From NCBI RefSeq assembly GCF_003030345.1, contig NZ_CP028158.1, positions 5,642,001 through 5,706,000 on the forward strand: a stretch of DNA of 64,000 nucleotides. The letters are read 5' to 3'. This document shows, in pieces, positions 3,415 to 7,390 of this stretch. The stretch's first letter is position 1. Each line of letters begins with the position of its first letter. Source of the stretch: Plantactinospora sp. BC1 (GTDB lineage: Bacteria; Actinomycetota; Actinomycetes; Mycobacteriales; Micromonosporaceae). The position numbers and the translations under genes are program-made. Under the pieces are notes generated by a model. It searched no databases, had not been told where the DNA came from, and saw only the letters and a list, made by a program, of their open reading frames with translations.

Positions 3415-4176
3415 TCAGAGGCTGCGCAGCGCGCCGCCGTCGACCGGGATGGTCACCCCGGTCAGATAGCTGGCGGCGGGGGAGAGCACGAACGCGGCCA
3501 CCCGGCCGAACTCGTCCGGGTCGCCGATCCGGCGCAGCGGTATCGCCGCCTCGGCGTCGGCCCGGGCCCGCTCCGGGTCGCCGGTGGCGGCGAAGAGTTC
3601 CCGGTTGCGGTCGGTCAGGATCCGGCCCGGGAGCAGGCTGAGCACCCGTACCCCGCGCGGGCCGTACTCGTCGGCCATGTCCTTGGCCACTCCGGCCAGT
3701 CCCGGGCGCAGCCCGTTCGAGATGCCGAGCCCGGGGATCGGTGCCCGGGCCGAGTTGGAGAGGACCAGGCCGAGCGCCCCGCCGGTGCTCAGGGCCGCGG
3801 CGATCGTCCGGGCGGCCCGGACGGTGCCGAGGAAGATGGTCTCGAAGGAGTCCCGCCACTGCGCGTCGGTGGCCTGGGCGGCGCTGCCGTGCGGCGGGCC
3901 GCCGACCGAGACGAGCCCGCCGTCGAGCCGGCCGAACCGCTCCAGCGCGGTCTCGACCAGCCGGGTCGCGGTCTCCGGCGCGGCCAGGTCGGCGGCGAGC
4001 CCCACCACCCGGTCGGCCGGGCCGAGCCGGCTCGCCGCCTCGGCGACCTGGTCGGGGTCCCGGGCCGAGATCACCACCCGGGCGCCGTCGGCCACCAGCG
4101 CGCGTGCGGTGGCGAGGCCGAGTCCCTTCGAGGCGCCGGTCAGCACGTACGCCCGGTCCGCGAGTCCGAGGTCCAT
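3415..4176 (-). CDS. Atypical short-chain dehydrogenase/reductase (BKR-like)
   Basis: The 253-residue protein has the N-terminal cofactor loop TGASKGLG and the usual SDR length, so a Rossmann-fold oxidoreductase is clear. At the catalytic site the usual Tyr-x3-Lys is missing. Where YxxxK is expected, the sequence reads ARAPIPGLGISNGLRPGL, with Ile in the Tyr position and no aligned Lys. This pattern matches the SDR subgroup described as BKR-like proteins lacking the standard tetrad. It may bind NAD(P) without normal reductase chemistry, or use other residues. The gene stands alone. Confidence 0.88.
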   Translation of the reverse strand: MDLGLADRAYVLTGASKGLGLATARALVADGARVVISARDPDQVAEAASRLGPADRVVGLAADLAAPETATRLVETALERFGRLDGGLVSVGGPPHGSAAQATDAQWRDSFETIFLGTVRAARTIAAALSTGGALGLVLSNSARAPIPGLGISNGLRPGLAGVAKDMADEYGPRGVRVLSLLPGRILTDRNRELFAATGDPERARADAEAAIPLRRIGDPDEFGRVAAFVLSPAASYLTGVTIPVDGGALRSL

Positions 4177-4264: not shown

Positions 4265-4834
4265 TCACGAACCGGAGCCGGCCCGGGAGCCGGGCAGGGT
4301 CCACACCCGTACCCGACCGGCGACCTGCACCACCAGCACGTCCGGGGTCCGGCGCAGCGCCGGCAGTCGACGTCGGCGCGGTGCCGTGCGGCCGTCGTAC
4401 CGCCAGCCGGCCTCCCGGACGGCGAGTTCCCCGGCGGCGGGCGCCGGGAGCGTCTTCCCGGCGGCCAGCTCCCGGGCCAGGTCCCAGCCGTCCCGGACCG
4501 AGCCGGCGGGCGGGCGGCCCGCCGCCCAGGCCGCGAAGACGGCCCGCCAACTCCGGCCGTGCCCGGCGGCGAGCAGCGGCCAGTGCCGGGCGACCTCGCC
4601 GGCCCGCTTGTGCAGCAGCGCCGACCGGGCCACCCCGACCAGTCGGGCGTCGAAGCCGGCTGGCAGCGGTGCCCCGGCCACCAGGGCGGCCACCAGCGCG
4701 GCCTGCCGGTCGGCCAGCGTCCCGGCCGGTCCGGGCGGGGTCTCCCCGGTCGTCAGCTCACCGCCGGGCGGCCGGAGGCGTGGTCGTGCTGCCGTTGGGC
4801 CGGCGCCGCCGACGGCGGTGGTCCGGTCGGTCAT
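4265..4834 (-). CDS. MNIO partner protein, HvfC/DUF2063-like
   Basis: This 189-residue protein starts one base after the stop of the DUF692 gene and must be co-translated with it. About residues 40-125 (LADRQAALVAALVAG, then RSALLHKRAGEVARHWPLL, then FAAWAAGRPPAGSVRDGWDLAREL) resemble the helical N-terminal domain of DUF2063/HvfC proteins. Those proteins accompany DUF692 enzymes and are thought to present the precursor peptide. The C-terminus (about 130-185) is Arg-rich and ends in a short beta-like segment DVLVVQVAGRVRVWTLPG. The family call is by eye. The position as third gene of an MNIO operon is firm. Confidence 0.72.
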   Translation of the reverse strand: MTDRTTAVGGAGPTAARPRLRPPGGELTTGETPPGPAGTLADRQAALVAALVAGAPLPAGFDARLVGVARSALLHKRAGEVARHWPLLAAGHGRSWRAVFAAWAAGRPPAGSVRDGWDLARELAAGKTLPAPAAGELAVREAGWRYDGRTAPRRRRLPALRRTPDVLVVQVAGRVRVWTLPGSRAGSGS

Positions 4835-4835
4835 C

Positions 4836-5687
4836 TCAGGTCACCGTCGGGTAGCCGGAGGCGGCGGCGATCGCGTCCAGTTCGGCGCGCAGCGCCGTCG
4901 CCGGTGGATAGTGCCCGTCCCGCTCCAGCAGCAGCGCCGGTGGCCGGTGCCGGGCGGAGAGTTCGGCGACCAGGTCGAGCACCTCCGGCGGGACCGGGTC
5001 GGTGTGCGTGTCGTGGTAGATCCCGTCGCTGGCCGCCCCACCCGCGACGTGTACGTAGCCGACCCGGTCCAGCGGCAGCCGGTCGAGCAGGTCGAGCGGG
5101 TCGGTACCCCGGTTGCGGGCGTTGGCGTAGACGTTGGCGATGTCCAGCAAGAGCAGCGCGCCGGTGCGGTCGAGGATCTCGGTGAGGAAGTCCGCCTCGT
5201 CCAGCTCGTCGTCCGGCCAGTCGAAGATGGCGGCGATCGGTTCCAGGGCGAGCGGAACGGAGAGTTCGGCCCGTACCCGGGCGACGTTTCCGACGACCGC
5301 GTCGACCGCCTCCCGGGTACGCGGCAACGGCAGCAGGTGGCCCGCCTCGATGCCGCCGGCCCGGACGAAGGCGATGTGTTCACTGGCCAGCGGGGCGTCC
5401 AGCAGCTCGGCGGCCCGGGCGAACTGGCGTACCCGGGCCGGCTCGACCGGCTCGGCGCCGCCGAGGGAGAGCCGCACCCCGTGCGGTACCACGGTCACGC
5501 CGCGGTCGCGCAGCTCGGCGAGGCCCGGCGGCGGCCCGGCGGCGGGGATCGACTCGGCGATCACCTCGACGAAGCGCAGGCCGGGCAGCTCCGCGACGAA
5601 GCCGGCGATCTCCGGCCGCCAGCCGATTCCCACCCCGTACCCGGGCTGCGGTGCCGACGCGCCGGGCAGGCCGTTCCCGGTCGTCAT
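4836..5687 (-). CDS. DUF692 multinuclear non-heme iron oxidative enzyme (MNIO)
   Basis: The 283-residue TIM-barrel protein shows the metal-site pattern of the MNIO family: H69 (VVPHGVRLSLGG), E103/H104 (ASEHIAF), E149 (LALEP), D182 and N185 (LLLDIANVY), H213 (YVHVAGG), D226/H228 (DTHTD) and E255 (LLLERD). Characterised relatives (MbnB, TglH, ChrH, the bufferin enzymes) oxidise cysteines of ribosomal peptides at a di- or tri-iron centre. The start is ATG 5687, which overlaps the upstream TGA as ATGA, so translation is coupled to the preceding gene. That gene encodes a protein with four cysteines in a Gly-rich tail, the obvious candidate substrate. The stop is one base before the partner gene. 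Confidence 0.93.
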   Translation of the reverse strand: MTTGNGLPGASAPQPGYGVGIGWRPEIAGFVAELPGLRFVEVIAESIPAAGPPPGLAELRDRGVTVVPHGVRLSLGGAEPVEPARVRQFARAAELLDAPLASEHIAFVRAGGIEAGHLLPLPRTREAVDAVVGNVARVRAELSVPLALEPIAAIFDWPDDELDEADFLTEILDRTGALLLLDIANVYANARNRGTDPLDLLDRLPLDRVGYVHVAGGAASDGIYHDTHTDPVPPEVLDLVAELSARHRPPALLLERDGHYPPATALRAELDAIAAASGYPTVT

Positions 5688-6622
5688 CCGCCACACCCGC
5701 CGCAGCCACCGCAGCCGCCGCCGCAGCCGCCGCCCGAACCGTCGCCGCCGCCGCTGCTGTCCCCGCCGCCGGATCCGCCGCCGGTATTCGCGGCCGTCCA
5801 GCCGCCGCCCGCCGCCGAACCGCTCATCGCGCGCTGCACCTCGGCCTCCATCGCGAAGGCCGGGTCGAACTCGACCAGCGCGGCCGTGCCGAACAGGGCG
5901 ACGCCCAGCGCCGCACCGGCCGCGCCGTAGGTGGCATAGGCCGGGGAGTGCCTCGGTTCGAGGTGCCGGTGTTGCCGGCGCAGGTCACGCAGCAGTGCGT
6001 CCGCCGCCCGGGTCCGGCGCGGCACCACGCAGAGCAGCACCACGCTGGTGGGCGCCAGCACCAGCAGGCTCAGCCCGAGGTAGCCGACCGGCTGGCCGCC
6101 GACCAGGCCGGCGACCAGCCGGGCCAGGCCGACCGCCACCAGCCCGAGCAGCAGCACCGGCCCGATCCGGGCGACCGGGCGGGCCGACGAGGGCAGCGCC
6201 AGGCCGCTGCGGGTCAGGTCGGCCCGGAGCGCGGCGAGCGCCGCGAGGACCTGCGGGTCGCTGTCGAGGGCCCGTCCGGGTACCCCGTGCGCGGCGGCCC
6301 GGTGCACGGCGGCGTCGAGCGGGGTGGCCGGTACCGGCAACGGTCCGGTCTGCGTCAGCCGGTGCTGCGGTGCGGTGCCGATCGCCCCGGCCGCGCGGAG
6401 CGCGCCGAGGGTGGCGTGCACGGCCAGCCGGTCACCGCCGGCCAGCCAGGCGAGCTGGACGGGATGTAGCCGCTCGGCCCCCGGTGGGCGGCGCCCGGCG
6501 AAGCCGAGCAGCCGGTGGGCCAGGGTGCCGAGCAGGACGACTCCGGCGATCGCCAGGTAGCCGCTCAGGAAGACCGGGCCGGACACGCCCCAGGTCTCGG
6601 TGTGCAGGGTCAGCGCGTCCAT
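5684..6622 (-). CDS. TIGR04222-like membrane protein with Gly/Cys-rich C-terminal tail
   Basis: The 312-residue protein has a membrane segment near residues 13-35, a soluble stretch with HPVQLAWLAGGDRLAVHATLGAL, two further helices around 150-205 and one near 235-255. This layout matches TIGR04222-domain proteins. After about residue 270 it becomes low-complexity Gly/Ser and ends in GGGCGGGCGGCGGCGG, with cysteines at 300, 304, 307 and 310. A GGAGG lies six bases before ATG 6622. The gene is first in an operon with an MNIO enzyme (ATGA overlap) and its partner. The tail therefore looks like a membrane-tethered precursor whose cysteines are modified. Metal binding or redox sensing are possible roles. 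Both are inference. Confidence 0.88.
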   Translation of the reverse strand: MDALTLHTETWGVSGPVFLSGYLAIAGVVLLGTLAHRLLGFAGRRPPGAERLHPVQLAWLAGGDRLAVHATLGALRAAGAIGTAPQHRLTQTGPLPVPATPLDAAVHRAAAHGVPGRALDSDPQVLAALAALRADLTRSGLALPSSARPVARIGPVLLLGLVAVGLARLVAGLVGGQPVGYLGLSLLVLAPTSVVLLCVVPRRTRAADALLRDLRRQHRHLEPRHSPAYATYGAAGAALGVALFGTAALVEFDPAFAMEAEVQRAMSGSAAGGGWTAANTGGGSGGGDSSGGGDGSGGGCGGGCGGCGGCGG

Positions 6623-6808: not shown

Positions 6809-7390
6809 TCAGCCCTCGGGGCGGCGTACCGCCTCCTCGACCAGGTCGAGCACCGGGCCGAGGTCGCCGGCCGGCCGGGCCATCGCCAGTTGCAGTACCA
6901 GGCCGTCGTAGGCCAGCTCCAGGAACCGGGCCAGCGTCTCGATCGGTACGTCGTCGCGCAGCACCCCGGCGTCCCGCTGCCGGGCCAGCCGATCCCGGGT
7001 GGCCTCGGCCAGACTCGCCGAACGTTCCGCCCAGCGCTGCGCGAACTCGGGGTCGGTGCGCAGTCGCCGGGACACCTCGAGCTGGCTGCCCAGCCAGCCG
7101 GTGGTGTCCGGCGAGGTGGCACCGGCGAGCAGGTCGCGCATGACCTGCACCAGGCCGTTGCGGGCGACCGTGGCGACCATCGCGGCGGCGTCGTCCTCGG
7201 CGACGGCGAGAAAGAGCGAGTCCTTGTCCCGGAAATGGTGGAAGATCGCTCCCCGGGAGAGCCCGGTCGCCTCTTCGAGCCGGCGCACCGTGGCACCCTC
7301 GTAGCCGTGGCGGGCGAAGCAGGCCCGGGCCGCGCCGAGAATCTCCTGACGGCGGGCGTCGAGCTGGTCCTGACTTACCCTGGGCACCAT
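6809..7390 (-). CDS. acnR: TetR-family repressor resembling AcnR (aconitase repressor)
   Basis: The 193-residue protein has an N-terminal TetR helix-turn-helix (AARACFARHGYEGATVRR, then LSRGAIFHHFRDKDSLF). It continues with MRDLLAG, LEVSRRLRTDPEFAQRW and DVPIETLARFLELAYDGLV. From memory these match corynebacterial AcnR closely along the whole length. AcnR represses aconitase and lies beside acn in Corynebacterium and Mycobacterium. Here acn is about 10 kb away. The same 16-base site occurs in both promoters, which supports the assignment. The ATG at 7390 is kept because GTG-CCC follows and the HTH needs this N-terminus. Confidence 0.85.
   Translation of the reverse strand: MVPRVSQDQLDARRQEILGAARACFARHGYEGATVRRLEEATGLSRGAIFHHFRDKDSLFLAVAEDDAAAMVATVARNGLVQVMRDLLAGATSPDTTGWLGSQLEVSRRLRTDPEFAQRWAERSASLAEATRDRLARQRDAGVLRDDVPIETLARFLELAYDGLVLQLAMARPAGDLGPVLDLVEEAVRRPEG

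Follow-up and report, generated by a model that had tools for sequence, protein, structure and literature searches.

A TIGR04222 membrane protein with a Cys/Gly tail as the predicted substrate of an adjacent MNIO enzyme in Plantactinospora sp. BC1

Results

A translationally coupled unit of membrane protein, MNIO, and helical partner

We analyzed a 64,000-nucleotide stretch of the genome of Plantactinospora sp. BC1 (contig NZ_CP028158.1, positions 5,642,001 to 5,706,000; this whole stretch is the window, and its own numbering is used throughout). The window carries a three-gene unit, all on the minus strand, which encodes a membrane protein of the TIGR04222 family, an enzyme of the MNIO (DUF692) family, and a helical partner protein.

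5684..6622, minus strand: TIGR04222 membrane protein, proposed MNIO substrate, 312 aa (NCBIfam TIGR04222, 136.7 bits; cut-off 43)
4836..5687, minus strand: MNIO (DUF692), 283 aa (PF05114, 263 bits; curated cut-off 25)
4265..4834, minus strand: MNIO partner, helical, PME-type 2-like, 189 aa (model; homologue in 111 of 112 loci)

The three genes are translationally coupled. The ATG of the MNIO gene (5687..5685) shares bases with the TGA of the membrane-protein gene (5686..5684) in an ATGA overlap, and the partner gene starts one base past the MNIO stop (4836/4834). A mechanical alternative MNIO start, a GTG at 5696, would give a protein of 286 aa. The membrane protein ends in GGGCGGGCGGCGGCGG, with cysteines at residues 300, 304, 307, and 310, and no second precursor-like gene is found within the unit. 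A preliminary description, made from the nucleotide sequence alone, had given the same gene order and spacing, the same assignments for the first two genes, and the same four cysteines, and had proposed the Cys/Gly tail as the MNIO substrate; the coordinates and family searches agree with it.

Tail cysteines follow the presence of an MNIO

To compare tails with MNIO occurrence, we searched TIGR04222 and PF05114 in two overlapping samples from the class (148 and 374 genomes) and in 150 genomes of the family. The matches listed comprise 288 distinct TIGR04222 genes (51 + 146 + 91) from 205 genomes. Matches above the family cut-off were kept, gene fragments and repeats were counted once, and matches below the cut-off, L082-L084 among them, were excluded. 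At most 17 TIGR04222 candidates per genome were scored in two of the samples and at most 7 in the third, and weak paralogues were missed. Six genes whose frame leaves the contig were dropped, which leaves 282. An MNIO gene was called adjacent when it was on the same strand and at most 5 kb away, and a tail was called Gly/Ser-rich when glycine and serine made up at least 50% of the last 40 residues.

All 149 Gly/Ser tails adjoining an MNIO contain cysteine, and 148 of them contain at least two. Cysteine is also present in 23 of the 27 Gly/Ser-tailed orphans whose genome encodes an MNIO elsewhere, but in only 2 of the 11 Gly/Ser tails from genomes with no detected MNIO. Counted by genus, tail cysteine was found in 45/45 genera for MNIO-adjacent genes, in 9/11 (any gene) for orphans of MNIO-bearing genomes, and in 2/5 for MNIO-less genomes. 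Fisher tests gave 3.7e-13 and 1.8e-4, uncorrected for kinship, with 97 of the 149 tails coming from one family. Of the two MNIO-less exceptions, G067 has, directly past the stop and in another frame, a stretch that by eye resembles the beginning of an MNIO and is cut by the contig end; in G216, a highly fragmented assembly, the tail has a single cysteine and a non-MNIO gene lies behind it. The remaining nine MNIO-less Gly/Ser tails have no cysteine in their last 40 residues. This pattern suggests that the Cys/Gly tail is the MNIO substrate, as first proposed. The further expectation that Cys-rich tails occur only beside a DUF692 gene held in part: cysteines in Gly/Ser tails track MNIOs, and Cys-bearing orphans also exist, mostly in genomes with an MNIO elsewhere.

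The cysteines also have a regular setting. Within the last 60 residues, glycine comes next after 552 of the 652 cysteines that have a following residue, and 106 of the 149 MNIO-adjacent Gly/Ser tails end exactly in CGG. In an alignment of 54 homologues of the window protein, the columns that hardly vary include the final GGCGG.

A second, named sample consisted of 80 MNIOs, the closest relatives kept, from Micromonospora, relatives of Actinoplanes, Phytohabitans, Actinomadura, Pseudonocardia, and others. Because this sample overlaps the survey and its members were chosen for their similarity to TIGR04222-linked MNIOs, it lends support without being independent. Seven loci with too little upstream DNA were left out. 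A TIGR04222 gene lies upstream in 72 of the 73 loci tested; all 72 encode at least two tail cysteines, and 62 end exactly in CGG. L367, from Verrucosispora sioxanthis, is the sole locus with no detected upstream TIGR04222 gene.

The source genome encodes one detected MNIO and four TIGR04222 proteins. One paralogue, L002 (C1:7755895-7756587), lies ~2.1 Mb away, has no adjoining MNIO, and ends in GSGCGGGGGCGGGGGGS. Because this orphan with a Cys/Gly tail occurs in a genome with a single MNIO, it is a possible substrate in trans. The other two paralogues have no Gly/Ser tail; one of them ends in DADCGCA.

The MNIO and its partner

The window MNIO scores below the cut-offs of its nearest NCBIfam models, BufB (177.7 bits; cut-off 310) and HvfB (150.5 bits; cut-off 360). 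Relatives with solved structures are 3bww, the 8hi7/8hci enzyme (TglH), and MbnB (7dz9). Ten residues, E48, H72, H107, E152, D185, N188, H216, D229, H231, and E258 (286-aa numbering), are invariant in 112/112 TIGR04222-linked MNIOs. We take these residues to be the metal ligands, by analogy with the MbnB and TglH structures; on that assumption the ligands are in place, as the preliminary description had it. Two genomes that hold the TIGR04222-linked type also carry a second, different MNIO locus (L115 in G252 and L124 in G214). There, a protein of 270-290 aa takes the place of the partner, and no adjoining TIGR04222 gene was found.

A homologue of the window partner lies beside the MNIO in 97 loci and is fused to it in 14 of the 112; in G149, the sole miss, the contig ends within the locus. 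The model used for this count was itself derived from 55 of the partners at these loci. For 26 of 147 MNIOs no locus was available in which to count the partner, and MNIOs first listed in the last PF05114 search entered the adjacency count only. In the named sample the partner is directly downstream in 79 of 80 loci, the miss again being cut by a contig end. In the first sample, the loci of genus g21 (probably Streptomyces, as inferred) carry the partner fused to the MNIO. At L041, L037, L053, L055, and similar g21 loci, this fusion is ~450 aa long and is followed by one Cys-tailed TIGR04222 gene, one tail-less TIGR04222 gene, or both. In G050 and G063, a gene with an N-terminal hydrophobic segment intervenes at the MNIO-partner fusion locus.

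The preliminary description had called the partner HvfC/DUF2063-like. Its position and helical make-up make this plausible, but neither sequence nor fold searches provide proof. The window partner matches no Pfam or NCBIfam model, and DUF2063 finds no match in it or anywhere in the source genome; among 29 partner homologues, two match DUF2063 weakly (best E 0.0039). An hhalign comparison of the partner with one DUF2063 protein and two partner-position proteins was negative (one of the four frames, L356, is possibly miscut), and a partner profile search of PDB sequences returned nothing credible. The partner model (predicted local distance difference test score [pLDDT] 86.6) consists of five helices followed by a C-terminal sheet of three strands. 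This would fit the published description, in which a helical part resembling DUF2063 is joined to a truncated RiPP recognition element (RRE; RiPP, ribosomally synthesized and post-translationally modified peptide).

Architecture and predicted topology of the TIGR04222 protein

An AlphaFold2 model of the TIGR04222 protein (mean pLDDT 86.5, predicted template modeling score 0.78), together with hydropathy, charge, and profile alignments, divides the protein as follows (TM, transmembrane helix).

6503..6580, minus strand: TM1, residues 15-40, N-terminus proposed outside (model helix; hydropathy; charge)
6203..6475, minus strand: winged-helix-like soluble domain, residues ~50-140, proposed cytoplasmic (helix/strand order in model; DUF2207_C alignment)
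6029..6166, minus strand: TM2-TM3 hairpin, residues 153-174 and 180-198 (model helices; hydropathy; DUF2207_C hairpin aligned)
5867..5941, minus strand: possible fourth TM, residues 228-252 (hydropathy; model helix; hhalign)
5687..5815, minus strand: Gly/Ser-rich disordered tail, residues 270-312, ending CGG (sequence; pLDDT <50 over most)

Hydropathy, taken as the best 19-residue mean over the 54 homologues, is 2.36 for TM1, 2.10 for TM2, and 2.55 for TM3. The candidate fourth segment averages 1.42 and reaches 1.6 or more in only 24% of homologues; in the model it forms a 16-residue helix and is then broken (229-252), and in paralogues it contains charged residues. Mean counts of lysine plus arginine are 0.09 in the 14 residues that precede TM1 in the model, 1.67 in residues 41-60, 2.76 in 140-152, 6.44 in 199-228, and 1.17 in 253-275; residues 41-152 carry on average 13.7 Lys and Arg against 9.7 Asp and Glu.

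Profile searches link the family to a known domain. PF20990 (DUF2207_C) is matched by 27 of the 54 homologues at E <=10 (best 1.9e-4), and hhalign aligns the TIGR04222 and DUF2207_C alignments with a probability of 96.3 (E 1.6e-9, single comparison), pairing the winged helix, the hairpin, and an RYLPYAIVFG element that falls on the would-be fourth helix. By sequence, the TIGR04222 family is distantly related to DUF2207_C. Residues 228-252, which correspond to the RYLPYAIVFG motif of DUF2207, are more likely an amphipathic element at the surface than a transmembrane helix. According to the available text of PMC10457818, DUF2207 proteins have a Protter-predicted extracellular N-terminus and a Gly/Ser-rich C-terminus, printed as "intercellular" and evidently intracellular, and the number of their TM segments varies. 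Of five DUF2207 proteins that we checked, four have no TM segment past the hairpin. Because of the DUF2207_C kinship, the hydropathy, and the charge distribution, our analysis suggests three TM helices with the N-terminus outside and a tail that probably lies in the cytoplasm, contrary to the published periplasmic placement.

A competing reading keeps the same enzyme and substrate but puts the tail on the outer side of the membrane. Modification would take place in the cytosol, ahead of insertion or in the course of it, and the tail, once exposed, would act like a tethered bufferin. Antoine et al., in the available text, consider the tail likely periplasmic on the basis of AlphaFold2 models (PMC12452194), bufferins are exported, and the fourth segment is marginally favorable on the octanol scale in 67% of the 54 homologues. 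Further points that count against a cytoplasmic tail, or against the kinship behind it, are that the window protein itself is not matched by PF20990, that one of the five DUF2207 proteins has a hydrophobic segment past the hairpin, and that the helix preceding the C-domain went undetected in two of the five. A PDB fold search with the TIGR04222 model gave no match at E <= 0.001, and a TIGR04222 profile search of PDB sequences gave nothing credible. Against an outside tail stand the positive charge on the side of the soluble domain and after TM3, the weak hydrophobicity and broken helix of the fourth segment together with its charges in paralogues, and its alignment with a DUF2207 motif past the hairpin. 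We consider the outside tail unlikely, though better placed than the other alternatives below. A cytoplasmic tail would be reachable by a cytosolic MNIO without export.

Neighboring genes

Downstream of the unit lies a gene that looks by eye like a short-chain dehydrogenase.

3415..4176, minus strand: short-chain dehydrogenase-like gene, downstream of the unit (by eye)

As a candidate fourth member it was rejected: a homologue occurs in 30 of 82 loci, all in the window's own family, and the gene is probably a neighbor outside the system. Upstream of the operon, a gene for a TetR-family-like regulator (by eye) occupies window positions 6809 to ~7400 on the minus strand.

Discussion

The combined evidence points, with moderate confidence, to an operon that makes a membrane-anchored, modified cysteine tail, cytoplasmic and possibly Cu(I)-binding, without an export step. 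The TIGR04222 protein would insert with three helices and its N-terminus outside, so that the winged-helix-like domain and the Gly/Cys tail face the cytoplasm. The soluble MNIO, held by its small helical partner, would dock at the inserted membrane protein and oxidize the cysteines of (G/S)-Cys-Gly units in place, perhaps beginning at the fixed C-terminal CGG. By kinship with the maturases of bufferins and with HvfB, the product would most likely be a Cu(I)-binding group of the thiooxazole or oxazolone/thioamide type. The result would be a ligand for copper, or another soft metal, tethered at the inner face of the membrane, although a role in metal handling is suggested only faintly, by analogy with these systems. 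The analysis gave no evidence for or against a copper or redox role, and no search aimed at copper genes was made. More tentatively, and as a possibility we would not call probable, the product may be a RiPP-like metal ligand on an inserted DUF2207-type protein that faces the cytoplasm and is never cleaved or exported, with modification proceeding from the C-terminal CGG and the winged-helix domain possibly replacing the RRE missing from the short partner.

The preliminary description had regarded the chemistry and role as uncharacterized. The pairing has been put forward before, as a prediction, by Antoine et al. (2025), who proposed subsets of TIGR04222 proteins to be MNIO substrates through C-proximal Cys-rich tails, named a Micromonospora example in their Fig. 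4 legend, and assigned PME-type 2 partners (PMC12452194). These clusters share the membrane-protein family, the MNIO, the helical partner type, and the Cys/Gly tail with the unit described here, and differ in the side of the membrane given to the tail, periplasmic in the published account and by our prediction cytoplasmic. In the available text of that paper, more than one quarter of TIGR04222 proteins have no C-proximal cysteine, one third of TIGR04222-bearing genomes have no MNIO, and no cross-count of tail cysteines with MNIO presence was found; Cys-free Gly/Ser tails in MNIO-less genomes may explain part of this looseness. According to the same text, PME-type 2 proteins are encoded by at least 10% of the clusters with TIGR04222, and many clusters with both genes are seemingly partnerless, whereas in our MNIO-linked loci the partner is near-universal; the published denominator, all TIGR04222 clusters, is wider, and the two figures are not directly comparable. 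Beyond the published prediction, our computational analysis shows that in the Gly/Ser class tail cysteines are associated almost completely with MNIOs, that nearly every MNIO-linked locus has a partner, and that the family is related to DUF2207; it also predicts a different topology.

Several observations weigh against the proposed function as a whole. Outside the Gly/Ser class the association fails: cysteine occurs in the last 40 residues of 4/27 MNIO-adjacent genes, 7/44 orphans in MNIO-bearing genomes, and 7/24 genes in MNIO-less genomes. These tails do not follow the MNIO, and the rule is therefore limited to Gly/Ser tails. DUF692-adjacent genes with Cys-less tails, which the preliminary description had named, if numerous, as a finding that would tell against it, do occur in a corner of the survey. 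Twenty-three MNIO-adjacent TIGR04222 genes have no cysteine in the last 40 residues; none reaches the Gly/Ser threshold, and 20 belong to g21, where the MNIO lies upstream. A tandem Cys-tailed copy stands at the same MNIO in seven (five in g21, plus G111 and G163), which leaves 15 g21 genes and G296 with neither tail cysteine nor Cys-tailed tandem copy. Of those 15 g21 genomes, six have an orphan copy elsewhere with 1-2 tail cysteines, and in nine none was found. All ten ligand positions are kept in the seven of these genomes that were checked, and the enzymes therefore have another substrate or none. Two further tail-less genes, 5.7 and 6.6 kb from an MNIO, were counted as orphans. These exceptions are real evidence against a strict rule; what they lack is the entire tail, not the cysteines of a retained Gly/Ser tail. 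Orphan Cys tails, for their part, require modification in trans. A PDB fold search gave nothing significant with the partner model (MbnC chain 7dz9_C at rank 7, E 1.5) or with the TIGR04222 model, and k-mer enrichment in the DNA upstream of 81 genes revealed no clear operator, the enriched words resembling coding sequence of the preceding gene. Among the papers listed in literature searches on MNIO or TIGR04222, no experimental test of tail modification was seen.

The orphans also lend themselves to another explanation, in which the cysteines of the tail stay free as thiols for metal binding or redox sensing, and the MNIO and its partner act on another substrate. The 23 of 27 Cys-bearing Gly/Ser orphans in MNIO-bearing genomes would suit it, as would the MNIOs that adjoin tail-less TIGR04222 genes. 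It accords poorly with the rarity of cysteine in MNIO-less Gly/Ser tails (two of 11, one of them resolved), and with a translationally coupled unit that offers the enzyme no other precursor-like gene, and we judge it improbable. The last alternative, a low-complexity tail arising as a by-product of a GC-rich genome in a coincidental operon, draws on the single base change from GGC to TGC and on the general tendency of such tails to repeat, but is already disfavored to the point of being barely credible by the cysteine content per tail residue (0.011 in 11 MNIO-less genes versus 0.102 in 149 MNIO-adjacent genes), the recurrent CGG end (106/149), and the upstream TIGR04222 gene in 72/73 named-sample loci.

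The proposed tethered cytoplasmic ligand can be set beside three known systems. Bufferins (BufA/BufB/BufC) have in common with it a Cys-containing substrate, a partner protein, and the closest NCBIfam maturase, BufB, although the window MNIO falls short of the BufB equivalog cut-off (177.7 versus 310 bits). Bufferins are Sec-exported and use a DUF2063-type (PME-type 1) partner (available text of PMC12452194), whereas here the substrate would be a multi-pass protein and the partner has no DUF2063 match. Oxazolins of the HvfB/HvfC type (Buf_EGKCG), whose maturase model is the second closest (150.5 bits, below 360), likewise derive from a Sec-exported precursor, in contrast to what would here be a multi-pass protein, whose tail has no EGKCG. 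DUF2207 proteins have a C-terminal domain homologous to the TIGR04222 domain, preceded by a large N-terminal domain that the window protein does not have. In at least 5 of 18 DUF2207 tails, a run of glycines precedes a final SW, among them those of L332, L333, L335, and L349; the last 40 residues have no cysteine in 15 of the 18 and one in the other three. A Cys-free Gly-rich tail may be an old feature of the DUF2207/TIGR04222 superfamily.

If the proposed reading is true, the substrates of MNIO enzymes extend beyond short peptides to integral membrane proteins, and a gene set that is common in actinobacteria but has no assigned use becomes a concrete test case. The proposed topology would direct attention to another compartment, with no export step and with an intracellular role in metal or redox processes, and the tail chemistry would provide a chemical handle for the uncharacterized DUF2207/TIGR04222 superfamily.

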